DNA from: a virus
Reading direction: 5' to 3' (one strand)
Virus record (IMG/VR): IMGVR_UViG_3300046005_001702
Span: 1-21,174 of that record
DNA: 21,174 nucleotides
Position 1 is the first letter of the stretch. Every line of letters begins with the position of its first letter. The notes under the pieces were generated by a model, which searched no databases, was not told the origin of the DNA, and saw only the letters and a program-made list of their open reading frames with translations. Below, one piece after another: positions 3,101-21,174 of the stretch. The position numbers and the translations under genes are program-made.

Positions 3101-3760
3101 TTAGCAGGATGAGGCCGCAGGGACGCGGCCAAGGATGGGGATTGAAAACGTAACCTTGCAGGCGATGTTGGCGAGCTGCTTGGACTCACCCGTCTTGCTG
3201 GACGTGCCGTTGTTGCGCGTGGTTCCGACGGATTTCGAGCTTCCGTTCTTCTCGGACGTGCCGTTGCTGGTGGAATTCTTCGTGTTGGTGGAGCTTCCGT
3301 TTTTCTCGGACGTGCCGTTGCTGGTGGACTCCTTCGTATTGGTGGAGGTGCCTTTCTTCTCGGACGTGCCGTTGCTGGTGGACTCCTTCGTATTGGTGGA
3401 GGTGCCGTTCTTGGTCGAAGTCCCGTTTGAGAACGATTTCTTATCGCTCGTGGAGTTCCCGTCCTTCGTGGAAGTCCCGTTTGAGAACGATTTCTTATCG
3501 CTCGTGGAGCTCCCGTTCTTCGTGGAAGTCCCGTTTGAGAACGATTTCTTGTCGCTTGTGGAGTTCCCGTTCTTCGTGGAAGTCCCGTTTGAGAACGATT
3601 TCTTGTCGCTTGTGGAGTTCCCGTCCTTGGTGGAAGTCCCGTTTGAGAACGATTTCTTGTCGCTTGTGGAGTAACCGTTGTTGGTCCGCGTTGAATTCTC
3701 CGACGAATCGGTTGATGACTTGCCTAACGTCGTGCTGGTGGTGTCGAGGGTGTTGGCCAT
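3101..3760 (-). CDS. Ser/Thr/Asn/Lys repeat protein, nine 18-residue repeats
   Basis: A 219-residue protein of unknown function. After a 30-residue Ser/Thr-rich start come nine consecutive 18-residue repeats (residues 31-192). Type A (five copies, 31-120) reads STSDKKSFSNGTSTKNG. Type B (three copies, 121-174) reads STNTKESTSNGTSEKNG. The last copy (175-192) is degenerate. A hydrophobic C-terminal cap of 27 residues follows (ACKVTFSIPILGRVPAASSC). Ser, Thr, Asn, Gly and Lys dominate the repeats and no hydrophobic heptad is present, so an extended beta-type or fibrous structure is more likely than a coiled coil. It lies directly downstream of a second protein with 18-residue repeats and upstream of the tail fibre. 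A linker or shaft of the tail appendage is the best guess. Confidence 0.65.
   Translation of the reverse strand: MANTLDTTSTTLGKSSTDSSENSTRTNNGYSTSDKKSFSNGTSTKDGNSTSDKKSFSNGTSTKNGNSTSDKKSFSNGTSTKNGSSTSDKKSFSNGTSTKDGNSTSDKKSFSNGTSTKNGTSTNTKESTSNGTSEKKGTSTNTKESTSNGTSEKNGSSTNTKNSTSNGTSEKNGSSKSVGTTRNNGTSSKTGESKQLANIACKVTFSIPILGRVPAASSC
3185..3670 (-). repeat. Nine tandem 54-bp coding repeats
   Basis: These in-frame 54-bp units encode the 18-residue repeats of the gene at 3101-3760. Units in the 3400-3670 part are nearly identical at the DNA level, with single changes such as Asp/Asn and synonymous ttatcgctc/ttgtcgctt. That implies recent duplication. The units nearer 3185 have diverged. Confidence 0.9.
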
Positions 3761-3768
3761 GGTGGATT

Positions 3769-4437
3769 TTAGGAAGTGCTAGAGGAGGCTGATGCTGAGG
3801 ATGTGAAATTCTCCGTGCTCTGCGTGGCATCGTGGATGGCGGTGCTGTTTCCCCTGTCGGTAACGTCGCCCCTTTCCGTTGTTTTGTTGTTGTCGGTAGA
3901 ATCGTTGGTGTCGCTCGACGTGCTGAAATCCGTTGTTTTGTTGTTGTCGGTAGAATCGTTGGTGTCGCTCGACGTGCTGAAGTCCGTTGTTTTATTGTTG
4001 TCGGTGGAGTCGTTGGTGTCGCTCGACGTGCTGAAATCCGTGCCGTTGCTTGTATCCGACGAGATGTTCGTGTCGGTGGACGTGCTCGCGTCGGTGCCGT
4101 TGCTTGTATCCGACGAGATGTTCGTGTCGGTGGACGTGCTTGTGTCGGTGCCGTTGCTCGTATCCGACGACGTGTTCGTGTCGGTGGACGTGCTCGTGTC
4201 GTCCGAATGCCGCTCCTCCGTGACCGTGGTCCCGTCGATTCCGCTGTTCACGTCGGTAGAAACCAACACGAGGTCGGATGACTGCCACGTTTGAACCAGC
4301 GTCACCTCGAATCCGACTTCTTTTGGAAGTTCCGCCATGATGCCTTGCTCACGCGCAAGCGCCACGCCTTTGGAGATGTTGGCGACGGTGTTCGCAATGA
4401 ACGCAGGGAGATCGGCGATAGGGATGATGTTTTCCAT
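3769..4437 (-). CDS. Ser/Thr/Asp repeat protein with globular N-terminal domain
   Basis: A 222-residue protein. Residues 1-65 look globular: a helix with LPAFIANTVANISKGVALAR, then LPKEVGFEVTLVQTWQSSDLV, a strand-rich segment. Residues 83-190 are six 18-residue repeats. The first three read like TSTDTNISSDTSNGTDAS and the last three like TSSDTNDSTDNNKTTDFS. The tail (191-222) is Ser-rich and irregular. The repeats are acidic (Asp), whereas those of the next gene are basic (Lys), so the neighbouring proteins could associate by charge; that is speculation. The N-terminal helix followed by a strand with an F-E-V-T pattern faintly recalls the trypco2 domain, but I would not assign it. The gene follows the second adaptor-like gene, so a tail or neck location is likely. 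Confidence 0.6.
   Translation of the reverse strand: MENIIPIADLPAFIANTVANISKGVALAREQGIMAELPKEVGFEVTLVQTWQSSDLVLVSTDVNSGIDGTTVTEERHSDDTSTSTDTNTSSDTSNGTDTSTSTDTNISSDTSNGTDASTSTDTNISSDTSNGTDFSTSSDTNDSTDNNKTTDFSTSSDTNDSTDNNKTTDFSTSSDTNDSTDNNKTTERGDVTDRGNSTAIHDATQSTENFTSSASASSSTS
3868..4191 (-). repeat. Six tandem 54-bp coding repeats
   Basis: These in-frame units encode the 18-residue Asp/Ser/Thr repeats at residues 83-190 of the gene at 3769-4437. There are two sub-families of three units each. Units of the second sub-family are almost identical in DNA (repeated aatccgttgttttgttgttg on the plus strand), showing recent duplication. Confidence 0.9.
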
Positions 4438-10931: not shown

Positions 10932-11009
10932 GGAAACGATGGGCCCCAGTCTTTACGTTTCGTCAAGAATAGAATTGCAATTTTTGTGCATTTGTATCTT
11001 TTTTGCGTT
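10932..11009. promoter_or_regulatory. AT-rich divergent intergenic region, likely two promoters
   Basis: This region separates the minus-strand scaffold gene from the inverted plus-strand pair. It is much more AT-rich than the rest of the window. It holds the perfect palindrome AATTGCAATT (10973-10982), a plus-strand TTTGTATCTTTT tract shortly before the ATG at 11010 and a minus-strand TTGACG. No standard sigma70 pair with good spacing stands out. It also carries a copy of the ACGAAACGTAAAGAC motif that recurs before two other minus-strand genes. Confidence 0.45.
10949..10963 (-). repeat. Third copy of the ACGAAAC(A/G)T(A/C)AAGAC motif
   Basis: The minus strand reads ACGAAACGTAAAGAC, one mismatch from the core at 15522-15536 (ACGAAACATAAAGAC). 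It lies 17 bases before the scaffold ATG, in the same orientation relative to its gene. It is part of the divergent intergenic region. Confidence 0.6.
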
Positions 11010-11651
11010 ATGGACCACTCACGATCCGACATCGCCCGCTTGGAATCGAAAGTCTCCGGACTGCTCCGCGACTTAGACGGCGTGCAATCCAGGCTGCGGG
11101 GCGTGGGAACTGAAATCGTCGTGGTGCCAACCGGCATCGAAGGATGGGGGAATCAAATCCGCGTGCTAGGGAGCATCCTTGGGCGGGTGACGTTGGAGTC
11201 CTCGGTTAATCACATGTGGAAGGTGACGCAAAGCGGCGAGACTGACGGGGTGCCGAAATTCAGCGCGCTGGGAGGAATTGCCGTCATCCAGGGAACACGG
11301 GTCAAGGTGGCGGATGTCGTTGAAGTGCCGCTAGGCGACGATACCACGACGACGAAAGGCGGCGGGTTTGTTGTGCTCAAAGTCACAAGAGACAACGCGA
11401 GCCGGGTATATGACTCTGAACATCCGCCCGTCATCGAATTTCACGCCGCGCAGCCAACCAGCACGGACGAGGAGGAATACACCGTGCTCGCGGAAGTCAC
11501 TGCGACGAGCGGCGACGTCCCTCCTGATATCACCCAGTGCCGCCGTGATGAGATTTGCAGCTATGAGCTGTTAATTGTCGCCAACGGCGAGTTCGCCTTG
11601 CTGCCGGTGCAGGCTAACAGCCGCAACAGCTACGCACCGCCATTGCCATGA
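11010..11651 (+). CDS. Unknown protein, first gene of inverted pair
   Basis: A 213-residue protein from ATG 11010 (MDHSRSDIARLESKVSG); a GTG 24 bases upstream is less likely. Residues 5-35 form a short coiled coil (RLESKVSGLLRDLDGVQSRL). The rest is beta-rich (TEIVVVPTGIEGWGNQIRVL, VIQGTRVKVADVVEVPL, GFVVLKVTRD, EEYTVLAEVTATSG). The end is YELLIVANGEFALLPVQ and a Pro-rich tail. I do not recognise the family. A coiled coil joined to beta structure would suit a trimeric virion appendage, but that is a guess. It is on the opposite strand to every other structural gene and is coupled by ATGA to the next plus-strand gene. No SD precedes it. Confidence 0.6.
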   Translation: MDHSRSDIARLESKVSGLLRDLDGVQSRLRGVGTEIVVVPTGIEGWGNQIRVLGSILGRVTLESSVNHMWKVTQSGETDGVPKFSALGGIAVIQGTRVKVADVVEVPLGDDTTTTKGGGFVVLKVTRDNASRVYDSEHPPVIEFHAAQPTSTDEEEYTVLAEVTATSGDVPPDITQCRRDEICSYELLIVANGEFALLPVQANSRNSYAPPLP

Positions 11652-12505
11652 GCGCCGGGGTTTTCACTGCCGACCTGAGATTTACCTTTGTCGATAAAAC
11701 GGCAGGCGAGGTAGGCGACGGCACTGCCTATCCGATGGAGGTGACGTGGGACCAGATCGCGGAGATATTCTACCGCGTCAAAGACGCTCAGTTTACGGGC
11801 GGCACCGCGGAGTGGAAAGTGACTGGATCGACGGTGTCGATCAGCGCCCCTACGACCGCTCCAACAAACAGGCGGCTTGATGTCAGCGCGTCAACCTATC
11901 AGCAGCGCGGTTATTGCAAGCTCGGCGGCGACGATTACAACGGAGCGACATACAACTCCGGCACCGGCAGCTATTACAGTGACATTGCGGCAAGTGAGTA
12001 TGGCATTTGGCGCAGCGCGTGGAAGACTCCCCACATCGACGCCTTTTCTTTCGGGCAGGATGACTTTAACGGCACCCAGTCTAGCAATTCGCAATGGTGG
12101 GGGACGCCTTCCGTTGGCATTGGGGTAAAAGCGAAAGTGCGGCGCGGGGACCGGGTCGCTGTCGTCAAGCTCGACCCGGCGGACGGGCTCTTTGCTCCAA
12201 CTAACAAGTTCTATCTGGAGATTGAGATGCTTTGGGAGGACTACTACCCACTGCCGTTTTTCGGCGGAACCAATATCTATGACGACGGCTACGGCTATGA
12301 TTGGAGCGCATACGCGGAACCGATTTGCCAATACATCCTGCGGCTCGAAAGCGGCGACGCGACTTGCCAAGTCTATTTCGCCGCCGACGCATGGTCCGAG
12401 GAATCCGGAACCCATTTCATCCATGAGGCTACCGAATGGTGGCCCTACGCCAAGGACGCGCCCCCCGTCGCCGTGTGGGATGCGGACACCGGGGCCAAGC
12501 TCTAG
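11648..12505 (+). CDS. Unknown aromatic-rich protein, second gene of inverted pair
   Basis: A 285-residue protein (MSAGVFTADLRFTFVDKTAG). It is strikingly rich in Trp, Tyr and Asp, as in YQQRGYCKLGGDDYNGATYN, SYYSDIAASEYGIWRSAW, LWEDYYPLPFFGGTNIYDDG and YGYDWSAYAEP. A probably folded N-terminal part includes YPMEVTWDQIAEIFYRVKDA. No signal peptide or membrane span is visible. The ATG overlaps the preceding stop (ATGA at 11648-11651). The stop codon shares a CTAG tetramer with the stop of the converging minus-strand gene. Aromatic-rich beta proteins like this can be carbohydrate-binding virion surface proteins, but I do not recognise a family and leave the function open. Confidence 0.6.
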   Translation: MSAGVFTADLRFTFVDKTAGEVGDGTAYPMEVTWDQIAEIFYRVKDAQFTGGTAEWKVTGSTVSISAPTTAPTNRRLDVSASTYQQRGYCKLGGDDYNGATYNSGTGSYYSDIAASEYGIWRSAWKTPHIDAFSFGQDDFNGTQSSNSQWWGTPSVGIGVKAKVRRGDRVAVVKLDPADGLFAPTNKFYLEIEMLWEDYYPLPFFGGTNIYDDGYGYDWSAYAEPICQYILRLESGDATCQVYFAADAWSEESGTHFIHEATEWWPYAKDAPPVAVWDADTGAKL

Positions 12506-12768
12506 CTCTGATTCAAGAGCCTCATGCAAGACCGCTTGGTGTCTGATGGCCAGCGCAAGACTTCCATGATTCCCATGCGGAACTGCCGCTTGGCTTCGCG
12601 CTCTTCCGCCGTCATGTCGGCGTGAAGGATTTCTTCCGCCAATCCATCGGCTCGGGATTTGAAGGAATCCATGAATCGGGTGAACTCCTCGCGGGTGGCA
12701 AGGTAATCAATATCCGCGACCATGGAGTTCGCGGCACGCATCATTTCGGTTTTCGGGTCTGCTCTCAT
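12502..12768 (-). CDS. Small helical protein next to portal
   Basis: An 88-residue, highly charged, probably all-helical protein (TREEFTRFMDSFKSRADGLA, then LHADMTAEEREAKRQFRMGI). The ATG overlaps the portal stop codon (ATGA at 12765-12768), so it is translated with the portal. Small helical proteins of this type often sit next to portal genes in podovirus-like phages, and their function is generally unknown. Its 3' end meets the inverted pair at CTAG (12502-12505). Confidence 0.6.
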   Translation of the reverse strand: MRADPKTEMMRAANSMVADIDYLATREEFTRFMDSFKSRADGLAEEILHADMTAEEREAKRQFRMGIMEVLRWPSDTKRSCMRLLNQS

Positions 12769-14957
12769 AGGTTTGGTGTGGATTGACGTGGTTTCGGAGC
12801 AACGGCGGCGGCAGCACCGGGCGCGACGGGGGCGGTCGGCATGGCCTGCAATTGGATCGGCTCGATCACGCGGTCGGCGTTCGGGATCTGGAGTGCCTTG
12901 AGAATATCAATCGCCATGTTCTGCGTGCGCATCTGCACGTCGATGGATGGTTGGGCGTAATACTTCTCAACGATCTCCCAAGCGCGGATGCTGCTCTCAA
13001 GGATTTGTTCCCCGCGATAACGGGTGAGCAGGATCCGAGTATCCAGCTCGATGTTTGAAATGTCCCCCGCGTTGATCTCGCGGAACTCGCCCGAGCCTTC
13101 GCCGCCTTCGCCATCCTCGAAATAGCGGTGGGTTTCCGTGGGGTCTAGGCGACTCATCATCAGCTTGACCATTTTCCCAAGGGTTTCGCTCACGCCGGGT
13201 TCCAAGTGTCCGAGGTGGAGGGAAAACAACTCTTGGCCGGACTTCTCGATGTTTCTGATGCCAGTGGCGAGCTTGCCGGATTCCAAGCCTGCAAGTTCGG
13301 CGTCGTTGGAATTCGATACGCCGCTTTCGTTGGTCATGAGCTGCATGAAGAACTCTGACAACTCTTGCACCTGATCGCCTGTCTGGTTTTCCAGATAGAC
13401 GCTCTCAAGGCAATCCTTGGCGGTTTTCCCCGGTGCCGGGGTGTAGGTGCCGCCCCAGTTCAATTCAAGGTTCTGGTTCGCCCGCCCTTCAATCGTGTTG
13501 TGAGGATTCCAGAAATCCACGCGGGCGGACTTCGAGTTGCTGAAACTCCATCGGTTGACAAGGAGGTCAACAATCCGCTGCGAGGTGTCGAACATCTCCA
13601 TCGCGCCAATGCCATACCAACGCCCAGGGACTTCATTCACGCGGACCACCACGAACGGGCGGAGGCCGTCGGCGGTGATGTTCGCCTCGTAGTCGTAGAA
13701 GATCGGCGCGCGGCTGCGGCGGTCCACCAGCAGCATGACATCCTCCAAGATGCCGTCGCCGTCGCAATCGTAGCGAAGGTGGAACTCGGCAATCTCGATG
13801 ATCGGTTGTGACTGCTCGTCGGCGCGCCCGTATTCGGTGGCGCTGTCCACGTTCCCGGAATTCTGGTTGCTCTTCGATTGCGACGATGAGGCGGCCAGCG
13901 TACGGAGCAGGTCCACCGCCTTGCGGGTGGCGTCGGCCTTTTCCTCCGCGCTCGCGCCTGCTTCGATGGATTTCTTCCATTCATCGGCCAGGTCCATCAG
14001 CGGGCGGTCGTAGAGGTGGACCACGCAATCCGCCTGCTGGAGGCTCTCCGCTTCGAGCGGACAGAGGAAGTCCATGAAATTGACCACCTTCGCCTCCGGG
14101 CCTTTGTAGTGGGTGATGCGGCGGGTAATGAGTTTTTGAACAAACTGCATCGTCGGCGGTTGCGGCGTCACGCCGTCGCGCTTGAGAACGATCATTCCGG
14201 AAGGAATCATTTCACCAGTGGCTGGGTCAGGGGCGGCCTCGGCAATCCACGGATCATCCTCAAGGATGTAATCCCCATCAGCACCAAGGATGTCCGCGCC
14301 CATTTCATCCACCAGCACGGCGGCGCGGGTCTTGTAAATCTGCGCCCGGTTCGCCCACGAGGTTTTCATCACCGCCTCGCCAATGATGAACGCCCGCTCG
14401 ATGCCTTGCTCTTGGCTGCGCTTGAGCTTCGCCTGATCCATCTTCCAGCGGATGTAGCGGTCCGCCTTGTCGGCGCGGTCGCGGTCGAGCGCGCCGACCG
14501 GGTAAATGGCGAACCACGGATCGGTGCCAAAGAAGTAATTCACGGCGCGGGCGATCATCTGGCGGCAGATCCGTCGCGCGGCCGGCACGACGAGATTGGA
14601 TTCCGCGAAGATCCCGCCCATCAGGTAACGCCGCCATCCGACTTCGTTCTTGTAGGTGAGGTCATAGAGGTGGCGCTTGCCCATCCACGTTTGCTGGCGG
14701 CTGCCCTTGCCCTCGAAGTCTTGGCTGTCCACGCCTTGCGCGTCCTGCCCCCACCACTCGCCAGAGCACACGTCGCGCCCGGTTTCCTTCTCCAACTGCT
14801 CCAAGCGGGTCATGGCGTGATTCACCAGCTCCTCTTCTTGGTCGCGGGTGAGTTCATAGGAAGTCGGAAATGGCATTACGCGAGAAACCCCGTCGTCATG
14901 AATAGGCTCCTCGCCCTCCTGCGGGGTTAGGATACGTTCGATTTGGTCTTGGATCAT
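12765..14957 (-). CDS. Portal protein (P22-like)
   Basis: A 730-residue protein forming the dodecameric ring at the capsid vertex through which DNA is packaged and ejected. The length fits P22-type portals (about 700-750). Diagnostic parts are ARRICRQMIARAVNYFFG at about 127-144, WKMDQAKLKRSQEQGIERAF at about 171-190 and an EF-hand-like loop DCDGDGILED at about 397-406, which is common in this family and probably binds Ca2+. GRWYGIGAMEMFDTSQRIVD at about 445-464 and LLVNRWSFSN form the conserved stem/clip helix region. The C-terminal end is Ala/Pro-rich and disordered. It is preceded by one copy of the 25-bp repeat and followed by an overlapping small gene. Starts further inside are less likely because the N-terminal acidic segment is coherent. 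Confidence 0.85.
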   Translation of the reverse strand: MIQDQIERILTPQEGEEPIHDDGVSRVMPFPTSYELTRDQEEELVNHAMTRLEQLEKETGRDVCSGEWWGQDAQGVDSQDFEGKGSRQQTWMGKRHLYDLTYKNEVGWRRYLMGGIFAESNLVVPAARRICRQMIARAVNYFFGTDPWFAIYPVGALDRDRADKADRYIRWKMDQAKLKRSQEQGIERAFIIGEAVMKTSWANRAQIYKTRAAVLVDEMGADILGADGDYILEDDPWIAEAAPDPATGEMIPSGMIVLKRDGVTPQPPTMQFVQKLITRRITHYKGPEAKVVNFMDFLCPLEAESLQQADCVVHLYDRPLMDLADEWKKSIEAGASAEEKADATRKAVDLLRTLAASSSQSKSNQNSGNVDSATEYGRADEQSQPIIEIAEFHLRYDCDGDGILEDVMLLVDRRSRAPIFYDYEANITADGLRPFVVVRVNEVPGRWYGIGAMEMFDTSQRIVDLLVNRWSFSNSKSARVDFWNPHNTIEGRANQNLELNWGGTYTPAPGKTAKDCLESVYLENQTGDQVQELSEFFMQLMTNESGVSNSNDAELAGLESGKLATGIRNIEKSGQELFSLHLGHLEPGVSETLGKMVKLMMSRLDPTETHRYFEDGEGGEGSGEFREINAGDISNIELDTRILLTRYRGEQILESSIRAWEIVEKYYAQPSIDVQMRTQNMAIDILKALQIPNADRVIEPIQLQAMPTAPVAPGAAAAVAPKPRQSTPNL

Positions 14958-14965
14958 GGTGATGG

Positions 14966-14990
14966 GGTCTTGATGTTTCGTTGGGATTAT
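14966..14990 (-). repeat. 25-bp direct repeat, copy 1
   Basis: The minus strand reads ATAATCCCAACGAAACATCA followed by AGACC. It overlaps the TAA stop of the hendecad-repeat gene and ends eight bases before the portal ATG. It differs at one of 25 positions from copy 2 at 15521-15545. Confidence 0.9.
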
Positions 14991-15520
14991 TTGCTTTTGC
15001 TTCTGCTTGAACGGCGGAGTGCTTCAATCCGGATGATGGCGGCGGCGATGGCCAAGAGGGTGTTGGCCGCCTGACGGGTGAACCAGTTGGAGTCATCGGT
15101 TCTTTTAATCATGAATGAGCGAACGTCGCTTGACTGTGTCGTCGCAAAGTCCGTGACATCCCCGGACCTCCGCGTCTGGAATTCCGTGGTGTTCTCGGAC
15201 TTATCCGTTTCAAATTCTGCGGAATCCTCGGATTTCGCCGCTTCAAAGTCCGTGACATCCCCGGACCTCCGCGTCTGGTATTCCGTGGTGTTCTCGGATT
15301 TGTCCGTTTCAAATTCTGCGGAATCATCGGATTTCGCCGTTTCAAAGTCCGTGACATCCCCGGATCTCCGCGTCTGGAATTCCGTGGTGTTCTCGGACTT
15401 ATCCGTTTCGAATTCCGTGGTGTTCTTCTCCAGAGCCGCCGCGAACTTCGCCGCGTTTTCGGCCAGCTTGGCGGCAAACTCTGCTGCGTTTCTTGCTTTT
15501 ACCTCGTCAAATGTTTCCAT
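14987..15520 (-). CDS. Hendecad-repeat protein with C-terminal hydrophobic helix
   Basis: A 177-residue protein of unknown function with an exact 11-residue period. Phe (Tyr once) occurs at residues 4, 15, 26, 37, 48, 59, 70, 81, 92, 103, 114, 125, 136 and 147. The first units are Ala/Leu-rich (AAKLAENAAKF). From 38 to 136 there are three 33-residue super-repeats (units such as ETDKSENTTEF, QTRRSGDVTDF and ETAKSDDSAEF). An 11-residue period suits a long right-handed or straight coiled coil. The C-terminus (NTLLAIAAAIIRIEALRR then SSRSKSK) is a hydrophobic helix with a basic end and could insert into a membrane or bind the portal or polyvalent protein. It lies between the ejection-type polyvalent gene and the portal gene, flanked by direct repeats. 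A neck whisker, internal core or ejection role is speculation. Confidence 0.7.
   Translation of the reverse strand: METFDEVKARNAAEFAAKLAENAAKFAAALEKNTTEFETDKSENTTEFQTRRSGDVTDFETAKSDDSAEFETDKSENTTEYQTRRSGDVTDFEAAKSEDSAEFETDKSENTTEFQTRRSGDVTDFATTQSSDVRSFMIKRTDDSNWFTRQAANTLLAIAAAIIRIEALRRSSRSKSK
15113..15409 (-). repeat. Three tandem 99-bp coding repeats
   Basis: Each 99-bp unit encodes three hendecads of the gene at 14987-15520. Units one and two are almost identical in DNA. The third diverges toward its end. The near-identity suggests recent in-frame duplication, which would lengthen the coiled coil by 33 residues per step. Confidence 0.9.
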
Positions 15521-15545
15521 GGTCTTTATGTTTCGTTGGGATTAT
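15521..15545 (-). repeat. 25-bp direct repeat, copy 2
   Basis: The minus strand reads ATAATCCCAACGAAACATAA followed by AGACC and abuts the ATG of the hendecad gene. It overlaps the TAA stop of the polyvalent gene. The distance to copy 1 (555 bp) spans the whole hendecad gene. Confidence 0.9.
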
Positions 15546-18500
15546 CGTGAATATTTGAATGCAACCAGTTTTTTCGCCTCGGACCTTGCGTCGGTGTGCG
15601 CTTCCTTGATTTTCTTCAGGTCGAGTTCGGTTGGATTCTGCATGTTGATTCCTGCACGCTTCAGCATGGCGGTGACGCGCTTTCCGGCGATGTCGCGGAA
15701 CTCGGTGAGTTGCGCTTGATTCATCTCCACCACGGCACCCGTGCGAGCGTGCTTGAATTCGCCCTTCATGATCGGCGATGGGAACCACGCCTTGTCAGGA
15801 TGCTTGTCACTCCACTTCAGAAGAACGCGGTCGAAGGTGTTCACGCTGTCAGAACCGATGTCCGTCGGGTCGATCGGGCGGAGCGGGGCAACGCCGGGTT
15901 TCGTGAGTTTCTTGCCGTATGGATCGACCTTCGCGGGCTTCTGGCCGATGGGGGCGACTTCATACATGAGAGACTGCATGAATCCGTCGGCGCGGTCGCG
16001 GAACTGCGTGTCTGATTCGCGGAGCGGCTGCTTGATGAAGTTTGGAACCACCATCGCGGCGCGGCTGGCAAGGAACTGAAGCGCCTTGCGATTCTCGCGC
16101 AAGTCCGGCTCGGTCATGACGGACGATGAGAGCTTGATGAAGTCTCCGATGCCCTTCATGAAACTCTTGTCTTGCGCTTGGCTGATGAGGCCGCCCATGG
16201 CTGCCATGCCTGCGTCGTAGGTGTCCTTGCCGGATCGGTCGGCGCGCTTGAACGACTTCATCATGTCGATGGTCGCGGCGAGGATAGTTGCCACTGGCTC
16301 GATGCGGCCGTAGGAGAATCCAAGGCGTTCGCTGCCGTCCTTGTTCATCCATGACATGCGGAATGGTCCGATGCCGGAACGCATCCGGGCGTCACGCTCG
16401 GCCATGCCAGTTGGAAGGAATGGAGACGATCCGGTGATGATGAATTTTTGATCTTGGTCGTCGTCGTCGCCTTCGCCCCATGCCAGAGCGTAGAGCGCGG
16501 TCATGAGAACGGCACCTTGCAACTGTTGGCCCATGCGCTCGATCAACTCGGCGCGGTGGAGGTGGCGGTTCATCGCCTCCTGCCCGTCGCCTTCGATCGC
16601 CCACTGCCACTTGCCATCGACGCGGGTGTTTCTCACAACTCCCATTGCGATGTCGGCGAGCGAGAACGGATTGAGCGTGTGGCGAACACCCTTGCGGATG
16701 ATGTTGAACGGCGTGCGTTGGAACGGGAAGAACGCCACGCGGAGAGCGGCGGAGAGTGCCTTGATGAAGATGTTGTCGTGCTCCCCGGTCACGGCATCAG
16801 TGAGGCGGGCGGCCATGTATCCCACGAAGTCGCCCATGTCATGCCGGGGAACTTCCTTGCCTGTGTGCGGGTCTTTTTGTCCGGGCAGCGGATTCGAGTA
16901 GATCGCCTTGGATGCTTTCTGGCTGGCCATTTGATAGGAGAGGCTTCCAGCGGTGTTGACCTCTTGGCGGATGAAGGTGTCCATCTCGGCGCTGCCGTCT
17001 TTCAATCCTTTCATCTTCGCCATGCGATAGGCGAACGTCCCGACCTCAGCCACGGCAATGAGCGTGCGGTTGAAATCGTCCGTTGCTGTCAGCAGGCGCA
17101 TTGGCAGGCGGATCAAATCCCCCTTGCGTCCGGCGATGCTGCCAACCATCCGGTGACTTCCGCCACCGAGGATTTTATCCCAATCGACTTCCATTGCATT
17201 CACGTCCCGGTCGAACATCGGGTGTTGCGCGGCCATGGAGGCTTGAGCGTTTGACCAAGCCCGTGAAATTGCGGTCCCGAGTGCGCGGACGATGTATTTC
17301 CCTTCGCCGTATTGCTCGGCCATCGGGTCTTTGACGAAATGGTTGATCGCCATGTTCACGCCACGTCCCACGGTGGATTCCCACGCTGCGGGAACAATCG
17401 CCGTGGCGTTCACCATCATTGTCTGCAAGCCGGAGAGCATGGAGAAGTAGAGATATTCACTCGCCTTGTCCACGAAGTCGGCATCCAGCGAATTGATCGT
17501 GCGGGCAACGAGAGCGACATGCGCCACGTCGTTGATGTCGAAGCGGTAGTCCTCGATTCCCTTAGTTCCCTCGAAGATCCCCTTGGCGTCGGTGTTGTAT
17601 TTGGCGAGGGTTTTGTTGATGTCGTCGAGGGCGGCTTCAGCCTTTGTGCGTTTCTCGCCGGTCAAGCTGTCGATCTTGCCCAACGCGCCGGCCAATCCGC
17701 GAATGATCTCCACGCGCTCCATGATTCCGTGGCGGTCCTTCAAATCGAACACCACGGTTTTCATGTGGTCGGAGAACTCCGGGCGGGACCAGTTGGCGGC
17801 GAGCGGGTGCGCTTCGATCTCGGTGACGGGTTTCTTCGGGCGAGCGGTGGGGAGCGGGCGGCTTTTCGACCACGCTTCAGCGTCAGGGATTCCCATCTGT
17901 TCCTTGCGGATTTTCATGGCAAGCGCGCGCATGGCGGCTTCGTTCATCCCGGCAGCGGCACCCGCGAGCGGAGCGGCCTTCAGCGTGTCTCTTTGGGAAG
18001 CGAGGATGTCTTCCATCGTCATGCCAGCGGCGAGCATCTTATACAGCTTCTCGTCCATTTCGGCGGCGGCTTTCTCGATGATCCCCTTCGCCTGCTCTGC
18101 GCCTAATTTTCCAAACCGCTTTCTAACGTCCACAGGGGACGCGCCCTTCTGGACAAACCGAATGATGTCTTGTTCCAGCGTGTTGCGGAGACTCAAGACT
18201 TCTTTTTCAAGGCGGGAGTTGACGAGTTGCAAGTCGCGGTTCTTGCCTTGAATCTGCTGGATAGACAGGTCGCGTTTTGCGAGTGCCTTTTCAACCTCGG
18301 CGATGCGCTTCTTGCCTTCGTCGGCGAGAAACGCTTTGCGCTCGGCGGGTTTCATCACTTCGGCGCGAGCGGCGATCTTCTTGCTCGGCGTGAAGATGGC
18401 GTCGGCAATAGCGGCGTGTGCGCGTTCTGCGGGCGTCAGGAACTTGTCCATGCGTTGACGGAATGCCCGTGCTTGTTCACGGCCAAGAATGACATTCGCG

Positions 18501-21174
18501 GTGGCGAGCATGTAGAGCTGCTCATAGTCTGCCGTGGTGCTCGCTGCTTCCGCCTTGCGGTTGAGAAGCAGATTGATCGCGTGCTGGCGGTAATCGTTGG
18601 TGAATTCCGGATTGTCGCCGTATCCAGATTCCAAGAGAAGTCTTTCAACCTCTTCCGGGTATTTCTCAAGAAACTCCCGACCCTGCGCGTGAGTGTCGCG
18701 GTCTTTTTTGATCTCGCGCTGATTGCTGTCGATCATCCGGGCGATGTCGAACGCATCACGGGCTTTCGGGCTTGCGCCGGGATTGGCGAATTTAGGATCT
18801 GCGCCTGCGGTGCCGCTGCCAAGCGCCTTCACTTGCTCTTGCGCGTTCTCGAATTTCTCGCGGTTTGCGTTGAATGCGTCGCGGGCTTTTTTGGCGGGGG
18901 TGGAGGGGAGAGGGGCGGTTTGAAGAATGCTCGGGCTGGAAGAGTTGAACCGCTCGCTGAGAGGGACTCCGGTGAATGGGTCGGCGGATTTGATTTGGGA
19001 GGGATTCTGAACGACCAACTCCGAGGTCATTCCTTTTCGTCCGGTTAACCCTCTTACTGAGTCAAAAGGAATACGGGAATCCGCAATCAGATCAGCCACA
19101 GTTTTTGACCACGAAGTTTGCTCGAACGGCATACGCAAGACCCTCTTCGCGTCTTGTAGAGCAGAGTCGTACGCAAGCTGGGCGATGATGAATTTCCCTG
19201 TCTCGGGAGAGTAGTTACCCCCATTGGCGCTCACCAAGGGGTTCTCGGCTTTCACATAGACACTATCACGCCTAAATTCCACTTTACTTGGGTCAACTCC
19301 GAGTCTTTCAAATTCGCCCTCGTTTCCGGTCGGACGAACACTAACTTTATCTGAAGTCATATCCGACAATACCGCATCTTCCGCGACGTAATACCCCGGA
19401 CCAAAATTCAATTCTGTGCTACGCGCAGGAGGTAAAGGAACGCCGTCAACGTAGAACCCAAACCGGACCCCTTTCCGGTTATACCCCGCAGCCTTCGCCG
19501 CCGCATCCACCAACGCCTGCGCCTCGGCAAGCTCCCCGGGCGTCAAACTGTCCTTGCGGGCTTCGAGTTCGGCGTGGCGGGCTTGTGCTGGCAGCTCGGC
19601 GGCGCGGAGGGTGGTGCCGGTGTCGGACTTTACGCTTGAAAACGTCTCTCCCATCTCAGTAACAATTTGAAACACCAGACGGATAACTCCAGTGCCGTAT
19701 GTGGCTCTCATCTCATTTCCGACCTGAGTGAATTCGCTGCCAATCGAATTTCGGTTGAGGGTCGGATGTCTCCAGATATTTCCTCCGTTAGAGCGAGACG
19801 CTGGAACACTGAGCGTGACGAGATTACCGCCTTTCGTCCATTTGATCGAACCGTCTTCATTGGTAACTTGAACGCCTAAATCAAGCATCTCCAATAGCTT
19901 CTCAGCCGTTCCAACTTGGACGCGCGCCTTGATGGCGGCCCGCTTCGTGAGAAACGACTTCGGAAGCAGGATGCCCATTTTATCAACCCCGGTGTCCGTG
20001 GTGTAGGTGATGACCTTTCCTGATCCTCCAAGAGCTTTCATCGCGGCCATGAGGTTGCCAGTGGCGATGGCGCTTTCTCCACCAACGTCTGTGGTGTCAG
20101 TCCATTCTTTCGCCGACTCGTAAGGGCTTGGCGTGAACGCTTCGTTCAGTTGAGTCACTGGCACGCGGAGCGTCTCGCGGCTGTCATTCACACGAATCAC
20201 CGCGATTTGCTTGCTGGGAGTCAAGAGGTGTTCGTTGTCCATCTTGATCTCTTCAATTACTCCAAGTCCCGAATTCCCGTCATTGCGCTTCACGCTTCCG
20301 AAGCGGCCAATAAGGGAGATTGAAGACGCGATGACGTTTCGTTGGGCGCGTTGGTTTGAAAGGAACTCTGCGCGTTTTTCATCATCCCATTTCTTCACCG
20401 CTCGCTTGGCTTTTTGGTCGGCGTGCTGATTCGCCATGGCGTCCGCATCAGAGAGATACTTCTGGAGAATCCGCTTTGATTGCGCCTTGGCGTCGCGTGC
20501 AAGCTCAACGGCGGCGTCGCCAGTCAACGGTTCTTTTCCAACTTTAGTTTCCACCGTTTCGATGTATGACGGATCAGAAAACGCTGAATCGCCTTCAGCT
20601 TGCTCCGTGAAGACTTCGCTGGAAATCGTCTTGGCCTGAAGGTCGAGAGCTTTCGCTTCCAGTGCATTCGCTCCGATCTGGTCGAGATAGGAGATGTATG
20701 CCTGATAGTCGGCAATGGTCTTTTCCCAGAAAATCTCCTGCTCTTCCACGGGCAGGATTGCGAGATAGCCCGTAATCGTCCGGGCGATGTATCCGGCGGG
20801 CTGGTCTTCAACCGCTCCTTGTGCGTCTTGAAACGAGAGCGCGTTGCCTGTCAGTTTGTCGAAGAACTTCGCCAGCGAAGATCCCAGCGGGCGGAGTTGA
20901 CGCTGTAGGTCCGGGTCGCGCTCGAACACCCGGTAGGCGACTTCATCACCATACTGGTTGAAAATATCGACAGCGGTGTTGCCCTCGCTCACGTCCGTCT
21001 TGGCGTTGGACGTGGTGTTGGCATTGAGCATGGACATTTTCTTGCCCAAGATCGCGGCGGGCCGCTTCTCCGCAGGGAGCGCGGTTTGCAGAAGGATGAA
21101 CTCCGGTTTCACTACCTGCCCGGAGCGGTGAATCCGTCCGAGCGTCTGCATGAACTCGTTGATGTCGAGATCTC
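15542..21174 (-). CDS. Giant polyvalent protein: Strawberry-notch-type helicase C-terminus, ART-like domain, LPD38-like region (partial)
   Basis: The frame is open through the right edge; about 1876 codons are visible and the N-terminus is missing. Numbering from the Met at 21151: helicase motif VI FMQTLGRIHRSGQV is at the start, followed by PAEKRPAAILGKKMSMLNAN, the Strawberry-notch (Helicase_C_4) pattern of phage polyvalent proteins. NLMAAMKALGG and DKMGILLPKSF, about 366-400, belong to the same extended region. At 545-730 is an ART-PolyVal-like domain (LVDAAAKAAGYN, FGPGYYVAEDA, VYVKAENPL, SELVVQNPSQIKSAD). Long helices follow, with a coiled coil at about 945-1000. The C-terminal third (YFSMLSGLQTMMVNATA, TATDDFNRTLIAVAEV, FFPFQRTPFNII, GRIEPVATILAATIDM) looks like LPD38. 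Such proteins are packaged and injected with DNA and may protect it from host defences. Cleavage sites are not evident. Confidence 0.8.
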   Translation of the reverse strand, partial: DLDINEFMQTLGRIHRSGQVVKPEFILLQTALPAEKRPAAILGKKMSMLNANTTSNAKTDVSEGNTAVDIFNQYGDEVAYRVFERDPDLQRQLRPLGSSLAKFFDKLTGNALSFQDAQGAVEDQPAGYIARTITGYLAILPVEEQEIFWEKTIADYQAYISYLDQIGANALEAKALDLQAKTISSEVFTEQAEGDSAFSDPSYIETVETKVGKEPLTGDAAVELARDAKAQSKRILQKYLSDADAMANQHADQKAKRAVKKWDDEKRAEFLSNQRAQRNVIASSISLIGRFGSVKRNDGNSGLGVIEEIKMDNEHLLTPSKQIAVIRVNDSRETLRVPVTQLNEAFTPSPYESAKEWTDTTDVGGESAIATGNLMAAMKALGGSGKVITYTTDTGVDKMGILLPKSFLTKRAAIKARVQVGTAEKLLEMLDLGVQVTNEDGSIKWTKGGNLVTLSVPASRSNGGNIWRHPTLNRNSIGSEFTQVGNEMRATYGTGVIRLVFQIVTEMGETFSSVKSDTGTTLRAAELPAQARHAELEARKDSLTPGELAEAQALVDAAAKAAGYNRKGVRFGFYVDGVPLPPARSTELNFGPGYYVAEDAVLSDMTSDKVSVRPTGNEGEFERLGVDPSKVEFRRDSVYVKAENPLVSANGGNYSPETGKFIIAQLAYDSALQDAKRVLRMPFEQTSWSKTVADLIADSRIPFDSVRGLTGRKGMTSELVVQNPSQIKSADPFTGVPLSERFNSSSPSILQTAPLPSTPAKKARDAFNANREKFENAQEQVKALGSGTAGADPKFANPGASPKARDAFDIARMIDSNQREIKKDRDTHAQGREFLEKYPEEVERLLLESGYGDNPEFTNDYRQHAINLLLNRKAEAASTTADYEQLYMLATANVILGREQARAFRQRMDKFLTPAERAHAAIADAIFTPSKKIAARAEVMKPAERKAFLADEGKKRIAEVEKALAKRDLSIQQIQGKNRDLQLVNSRLEKEVLSLRNTLEQDIIRFVQKGASPVDVRKRFGKLGAEQAKGIIEKAAAEMDEKLYKMLAAGMTMEDILASQRDTLKAAPLAGAAAGMNEAAMRALAMKIRKEQMGIPDAEAWSKSRPLPTARPKKPVTEIEAHPLAANWSRPEFSDHMKTVVFDLKDRHGIMERVEIIRGLAGALGKIDSLTGEKRTKAEAALDDINKTLAKYNTDAKGIFEGTKGIEDYRFDINDVAHVALVARTINSLDADFVDKASEYLYFSMLSGLQTMMVNATAIVPAAWESTVGRGVNMAINHFVKDPMAEQYGEGKYIVRALGTAISRAWSNAQASMAAQHPMFDRDVNAMEVDWDKILGGGSHRMVGSIAGRKGDLIRLPMRLLTATDDFNRTLIAVAEVGTFAYRMAKMKGLKDGSAEMDTFIRQEVNTAGSLSYQMASQKASKAIYSNPLPGQKDPHTGKEVPRHDMGDFVGYMAARLTDAVTGEHDNIFIKALSAALRVAFFPFQRTPFNIIRKGVRHTLNPFSLADIAMGVVRNTRVDGKWQWAIEGDGQEAMNRHLHRAELIERMGQQLQGAVLMTALYALAWGEGDDDDQDQKFIITGSSPFLPTGMAERDARMRSGIGPFRMSWMNKDGSERLGFSYGRIEPVATILAATIDMMKSFKRADRSGKDTYDAGMAAMGGLISQAQDKSFMKGIGDFIKLSSSVMTEPDLRENRKALQFLASRAAMVVPNFIKQPLRESDTQFRDRADGFMQSLMYEVAPIGQKPAKVDPYGKKLTKPGVAPLRPIDPTDIGSDSVNTFDRVLLKWSDKHPDKAWFPSPIMKGEFKHARTGAVVEMNQAQLTEFRDIAGKRVTAMLKRAGINMQNPTELDLKKIKEAHTDARSEAKKLVAFKYSR

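Follow-up and report, generated by a model that had tools for sequence, protein, structure and literature searches.

The window, meaning the whole stretch of DNA analysed here (21,174 nucleotides, positions 1 to 21,174 of IMG/VR virus record IMGVR_UViG_3300046005_001702), carries a small accessory gene between a giant gene and a portal gene. The product of this gene is built on an 11-residue repeat marked by an aromatic residue. The features on which the analysis draws are these:

12765..14957, minus strand: SU10-type portal protein, 730 aa (PF23899, E=3e-24; phrog_1216, 1.4e-19).
14966..14990, minus strand: second copy of the leader, ...CATCAAGACC, ahead of the portal gene and overlapping the stop codon of the accessory gene.
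14987..15520, minus strand: accessory gene, an ORF with ATG start whose translation of 177 aa comprises 14 aromatic 11-residue units, a C-terminal helix and a basic tail.
14990..15079, minus strand: short hydrophobic helix (L155, I158, I162, I165) and basic tail, residues 148-177, from 19-residue Kyte-Doolittle (KD-19) means and charge.
15080..15511, minus strand: aromatic array, residues 4-147 of the translation, with F/Y every 11 residues.
15145..15166, minus strand: 22-bp homology at the 198-bp (6-unit) deletion or insertion that separates the window allele from a 20-unit allele, a single indel explaining the whole difference.
15145..15415, minus strand: super-repeat of 99 bp (33 aa, three units) in 2.7 copies, from Tandem Repeats Finder (94% matches).
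15521..15545, minus strand: leader of 25 bp ahead of the accessory gene, ATAATCCCAACGAAACATAAAGACC.
15542..21151, minus strand: C-terminal part of a giant polyvalent protein (strawberry-notch helicase C domain, PF13871, 1.8e-9).

The accessory gene stands directly behind the giant gene and ahead of the portal gene, tightly spaced, in the same operon and on the same strand as the portal, scaffold, capsid and tail genes. Judged from its genes, the virus is short-tailed and of podophage type; the product of 6813-7796 matches the podophage GP4 fibre-I protein (PF23140, 1.9e-52; PDB 8jou), and its best relative in phage records belongs to a genome labelled Podoviridae. In the giant protein (15542-21151, minus strand) the helicase C domain is joined to an internal-virion-protein-like C-terminal part, the last 720 residues of which match phrog_6651, internal virion protein (1.4e-6; best member 3.8e-12). 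This part is also similar to internal virion protein D of Roseobacter phage CRP-804 (23%, 5e-8), and its AlphaFold2 model, at pLDDT 38, was uninformative. A comparable giant DarB-like protein is present in virions of the Bcep22-like podophage JC1 (PMC9144972). Given the internal-virion-protein matches, the accessory gene would adjoin the gene for a probable ejected protein, the giant neighbour being probably a co-ejected internal virion protein. A bacterium of the Verrucomicrobiota is the probable host, the one hint to it being a single related phage or prophage (NZ_JAENIJ010000025.1, portal 61%) that lies in a genome of Luteolibacter pohnpeiensis.

Other parts of these genomes have peculiarities of their own. 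Two plus-strand genes (10986-12505) lie inside the minus-strand virion operon, between a small post-portal gene and the scaffold gene, and L239, L252 and the Luteolibacter element also have an oppositely oriented gene pair at this place. The adjacent genes at 3101-3760 and 3769-4437 (both minus strand) contain S/T/N-rich 18-aa (54-bp) repeats with F in several units; in sibling contigs their lengths are whole units apart (222 vs 240 aa and 219 vs 201 aa), and relatives, in which the linker is short, conserve their non-repeat ends (MENIIPIADLPAF... and ...SIPILGRVPA). At the very end of the contig of one relative (G005; L239:14012-14894) an ORF has a tape-measure-like N-terminus (phrog_1538, 5e-11), which may reflect recombination or a chimeric contig end; it was rejected as the tape measure of that relative, since in G004, whose overlapping sequence extends beyond that point, fibre and other genes occupy the place.

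Comparison of the junction between giant gene and portal gene shows how the accessory gene is distributed. L008 and L009 (portal 83%) have the portal gene directly after the giant gene, with one leader copy (AACCCCAACGAAACGTAAAGGCC), and a search of the whole records found no copy of the gene elsewhere in these contigs. Two leader copies in the window against one at this empty site indicate that gene and leader have been gained or lost there together; 14987-15520 is thus an accessory cassette with its own leader copy. L252 and the Luteolibacter element likewise have no gene at the junction, and L253 has an unrelated gene of 87 aa (L253:768-1031) with a signal-peptide-like start, MKRRNFFQSIAGLFALPFVPKAEA. 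G006, whose contig stops inside the portal gene, was left out of this comparison. RNA structure prediction for the leader at 15521..15545 gave none.

In an IMG/VR scan the gene was found in only three further contigs; L007 has a fragment of it at a contig end. No homologue was found in phage records, in GTDB genome contigs or in 260 genomes from the family to which Luteolibacter pohnpeiensis belongs, the last searched without a positive control. Pfam, PHROGs and PDB yielded no accepted match for the 177-aa protein, and hits to PF16058 (Mucin-like; 1.8e-4, below its cut-off) and virginiamycin B lyase (0.0055) were attributed to composition or chance.

The original prediction was of F or Y at every eleventh residue from 4 to 147 without a gap, and the translation agrees: residues 4+11k for k=0..13 (4, 15, 26 ... 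147) comprise 13 F and Y81, no F or Y lies off this register inside the array, and the only other aromatic is W146. The longest F/Y run at a spacing of 11 in 20,000 residue shuffles was 5, compared with the 14 observed, and the DNA pattern TWY-N30 x11 was found four times against 0.00 expected. This regularity is in part trivial, because units 4-11 are duplication copies. The 14 units fall into groups with fewer than 5/10 non-aromatic residues in common, and the aromatic is present in 8/8 such groups (chance ~3e-8 once one unit has fixed the phase). Three alleles, of 14, 17 and 20 units, together contain 22 distinct units, 22/22 of which have F or Y at position 0; a second conserved position lies at +7 from the aromatic, occupied by N or D in 20/22. 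Units 1-3 are Ala-rich and units 4-12 rich in S/T/N/D/G, and the protein overall is a long polar chain, net acidic. Other frames through the repeat are also open, since its length is a multiple of three. A frame error as the origin of the ORF was set aside, as the gene has its own ATG behind a conserved leader and its dN of 0.052 lies below its dS of 0.116 against L004, measured over the few sites of the alignable ends.

Differences in length between alleles comprise whole units. L005 and L006, which share 99.9-100% identity with the window across 16.6 kb and 100% in the portal, have 20 units (243 aa), and within the gene one clean 198-bp indel accounts for the difference from the 14-unit allele. 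A sister phage, L004 (portal 98%), has 17 units (210 aa), among them its own expanded unit type, with every aromatic kept; the three-unit super-repeat of the window reads FETDKSENTTE-FQTRRSGDVTD-FETAKSDDSAE. Whole units (33 bp and multiples) have therefore been gained or lost with the aromatic retained. The idea that length changes by duplication holds in the form of duplication or deletion of whole units. Assembly collapse is unlikely to lie behind the 14/20 difference, because the longest exact repeats (44 bp for the allele of the window and 84 bp for the one with 20 units) are shorter than typical final k-mers or reads, and because a single indel suffices.

Evidence for helical structure is uneven along the protein. 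Units 1-3 have a good amphipathic helix pattern (hydrophobic moment at 100 degrees of 0.31 for residues 4-37), whereas units 4-12 are without a helical hydrophobic period: for residues 37-136 the moment at 100 degrees is 0.10 and the hydrophobic maximum lies near 130 degrees (moment 0.33), compared with a helical 98-100 degrees. In hendecad numbering with F at h, positions +4, +7, +8 and +11 become a, d, e and h; the first three units, with their Ala and Leu, suit this scheme well, the central S/T/N/D/G-rich units less so. An AlphaFold2 monomer model made with the three alleles as input has two long helices, at 4-99 and 111-174 (mean pLDDT 60, pTM 0.24), with pLDDT of 77-82 in the first 30 residues, 44-60 in the repeats and ~70 in the C-terminal helix. 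Foldseek with the 177-aa model matched no solved structure. The helical state is therefore a low-confidence prediction, and the centre, given its unhelical composition, its ~131-degree peak and its pLDDT of 44-60, may be disordered. As to the C-terminus, which had been described as a hydrophobic helix with a basic tail, the basic tail is confirmed (net charge +6 from residue 136), but the hydrophobicity is too weak for a confident transmembrane segment: the best 19-residue Kyte-Doolittle mean is 1.38, below the usual threshold, and the stretch of ~11 residues is interrupted by R164 and E166. As L155, I158, I162 and I165 follow a heptad, this helix would be as likely to have an oligomerising role as to act as a membrane anchor.

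The explanation tentatively put foremost is an accessory chain, polar and with aromatic contacts at even intervals, that would be co-expressed with the virion genes and probably associates with internal (ejection) proteins; we infer a virion association, a helical state and a binding role. A virion-side reading is favoured because of the operon context, the GP4 fibre-I gene, the internal-virion-protein neighbour and the similar arrays in two other virion-type proteins (L198 and L163, below). Also in favour of this explanation are the array itself, kept in alleles of 14, 17 and 20 units, the empty site that marks the gene as accessory, and a length that drifts while its surroundings stay constant. 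Against it are the relatives that have no such gene, the S/T/N/D/G-rich centre, the low pLDDT, the unconvincing membrane helix and the empty Foldseek result. On this explanation the chain would be made late, together with the virion genes, and its aromatics would form one stripe of regular contact points, 11 residues being three helical turns, by which it might bind either to other molecules of the same protein or to a partner among the internal virion proteins. The protein would travel in or beside the internal (ejection) proteins, with the C-terminal helix anchoring or oligomerising, and its unit number would set reach or valency. That number is proposed to drift, by unequal exchange between near-identical 33-bp/99-bp repeats, because it matches no fixed virion dimension, and selection would preserve the aromatic of each unit. 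That the protein is an optional stand-alone aromatic ladder of variable valency, packaged with internal virion proteins and with its rungs changed by recombination, seems rather improbable; if it were so, rung number would tune an interaction (with the giant protein, DNA or the host envelope) untied to virion geometry.

Two close rivals to the polar contact chain place it elsewhere or deny it much structure. One, possible though doubtful, is a non-virion accessory gene (a moron) acting in the infected cell, with a cytoplasmic or membrane-attached product that might serve, for example, in superinfection exclusion or host take-over with the C-terminus as its anchor. Such a gene could well have its own leader copy, be optional at a junction that elsewhere holds nothing or another small gene (the 87 aa of L253) and encode a C-terminus both hydrophobic and basic; it would be less expected on the same strand, tightly spaced, inside a late virion operon, the C-terminal segment is weak as a transmembrane helix (KD-19 1.38), and no defence or counter-defence family was matched in Pfam or PHROGs. 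The other, about as plausible as the moron, is a largely disordered, length-neutral, low-complexity spacer with aromatic stickers, expanded by slippage, in which mutation and mild selection would account for the regularity. The low AlphaFold2 confidence in the repeats, the preponderance of poor helix formers with no helical hydrophobic period in units 4-12, and the whole-unit variation of two other genes of this phage, with S/T-rich 18-aa repeats (222/240 and 219/201 aa), are consistent with such a spacer. It fits less well with units outside the duplicated core, and a diverged allele, that retain the aromatic and mostly N/D at +7, with the helical appearance of the first three and last two units, or with AlphaFold2 drawing helix rather than coil everywhere but at 100-110.

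The original prediction had offered a length-setting rod in the neck or ejection apparatus as a possibility, here considered as a ruler or miniature tape measure in neck or tail. Although 11-residue aromatic markers are characteristic of some tape-measure proteins (PMC3271669, PMC5099701), and duplication does alter the length of the protein, this was rejected as the principal interpretation on two grounds, the 14/20-unit pair and the relatives that lack the gene: either 14 or 20 units occur with an identical portal, nearly identical virion genes and more than 16 kb at 99.9-100% identity, so that length is not matched to the neck, and the closest relatives, with the same gene order, manage without the gene. 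Moreover, it lies before the portal gene and not in the tail module, in a podophage-type context that implies no long tail, all of which makes a rod of this sort very improbable. Equally remote is an ejection channel protein like T7 gp14 (a core small ejection protein) or phiX174 H. The 177-243 aa of the alleles overlap the 181-240 aa of gp14-like proteins (PMC8954989), the gene is beside that of an internal virion protein, and the phiX174 H tube, a hendecad/heptad structure, makes use of hendecads (PMC7354561). However, proteins of the gp14 kind carry several membrane helices (T7-type homologues are predicted to have four or five; PMC8954989) where at most one weak segment is seen here, no sequence match was found, and relatives would not be expected to lack a channel protein that is indispensable.

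The locus provides a clean natural length series for an aromatic 11-residue repeat that is not part of a tape-measure protein: alleles of 14, 17 and 20 units and genomes lacking the gene, the 14/20 pair coming from phages otherwise nearly identical. Such a series separates ideas that are usually confounded, namely aromatic spacing as a ruler and aromatics as contact points of freely varying number.

An aromatic at every 11 (or 11-11-18) residues is found in ~5% of tape-measure proteins, where it has been seen as tape marks (PMC3271669, PMC5099701), and the accessory protein resembles such proteins (PMC3271669; TP901-1, PMC5099701) both in having one marker per 11 residues over many units and in a length that evolves via unit duplication and loss. 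With seven consecutive F from F4 to F70, it contains the published Pattern 1 ([FW] at spacing 11 in >=7 consecutive units; Belcaid et al. 2011, PMC3271669). Unlike tape-measure proteins, it is not long (177-243 aa), the alternative marker of its array is Y and never W, and it is the product of a dispensable accessory gene before the portal gene of a podophage-type genome, varying in length while other virion genes are constant. A search for a tape-measure profile gave no TMP family in Pfam and chance-level matches only to PHROGs tail families (E 0.33 or worse). On the features compared, the accessory protein does not class as a tape-measure protein. The phiX174 DNA pilot protein H (PMC7354561) likewise combines a polar sequence with 11-residue repeats, helical in H and predicted at low confidence to be so here, and has a link to DNA delivery, which here is suggested by context; its hendecads, however, feature Q/N/M and no aromatic marker, its tube of ~120 residues is essential, and no sequence similarity to it was found. 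Proteins of the T7 gp14 / P22 gp7 type are similar in size and also have a large internal virion protein adjacent, but differ from the accessory protein with its one weak hydrophobic segment, lack of sequence match and lack of conservation in relatives.

Closer parallels came from IMG/VR scans for codons 33 bp apart, either ten for F or fourteen for F/Y; each scan returned at least 120 contigs. Most of the matches listed, classed by eye, were BspA-type, pentapeptide-like or W-rich tape measures, but also among those listed were polar F/Y arrays in unrelated virion-type proteins (L198, L163, L103, L027, L077, L020 and L130). For L198 the match is to phrog_598 (DNA ejection), for L163 to phrog_6121 (virion structural protein); the surroundings of L103 and L027 are similar to theirs, and several of these array genes appear, from sequence, to stand behind nozzle-type genes. 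Aromatic 11-residue arrays therefore recur in podophage virion or ejection proteins, apparently as a little-described device, and no discussion of them in such proteins was found in the literature searched. The suggestion that the protein belongs to no recognised family consequently survives in part: no homologue was found outside its own phage group, but aromatic 11-residue spacing has been published for tape-measure proteins and recurs in unrelated phage virion proteins. L198, L163, L103, L027 and L077 share with the accessory protein the F/Y at every 11 residues, the otherwise polar sequence and a position near nozzle or ejection genes, but in them the array, with units such as FNAEQANRASE, is only part of a protein of 580-820 aa with other domains, whereas in the 177-aa protein it is nearly the whole. 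The aromatic 11-residue array is thus a known and recurrent device, and what is new is its occurrence as a stand-alone, optional protein.
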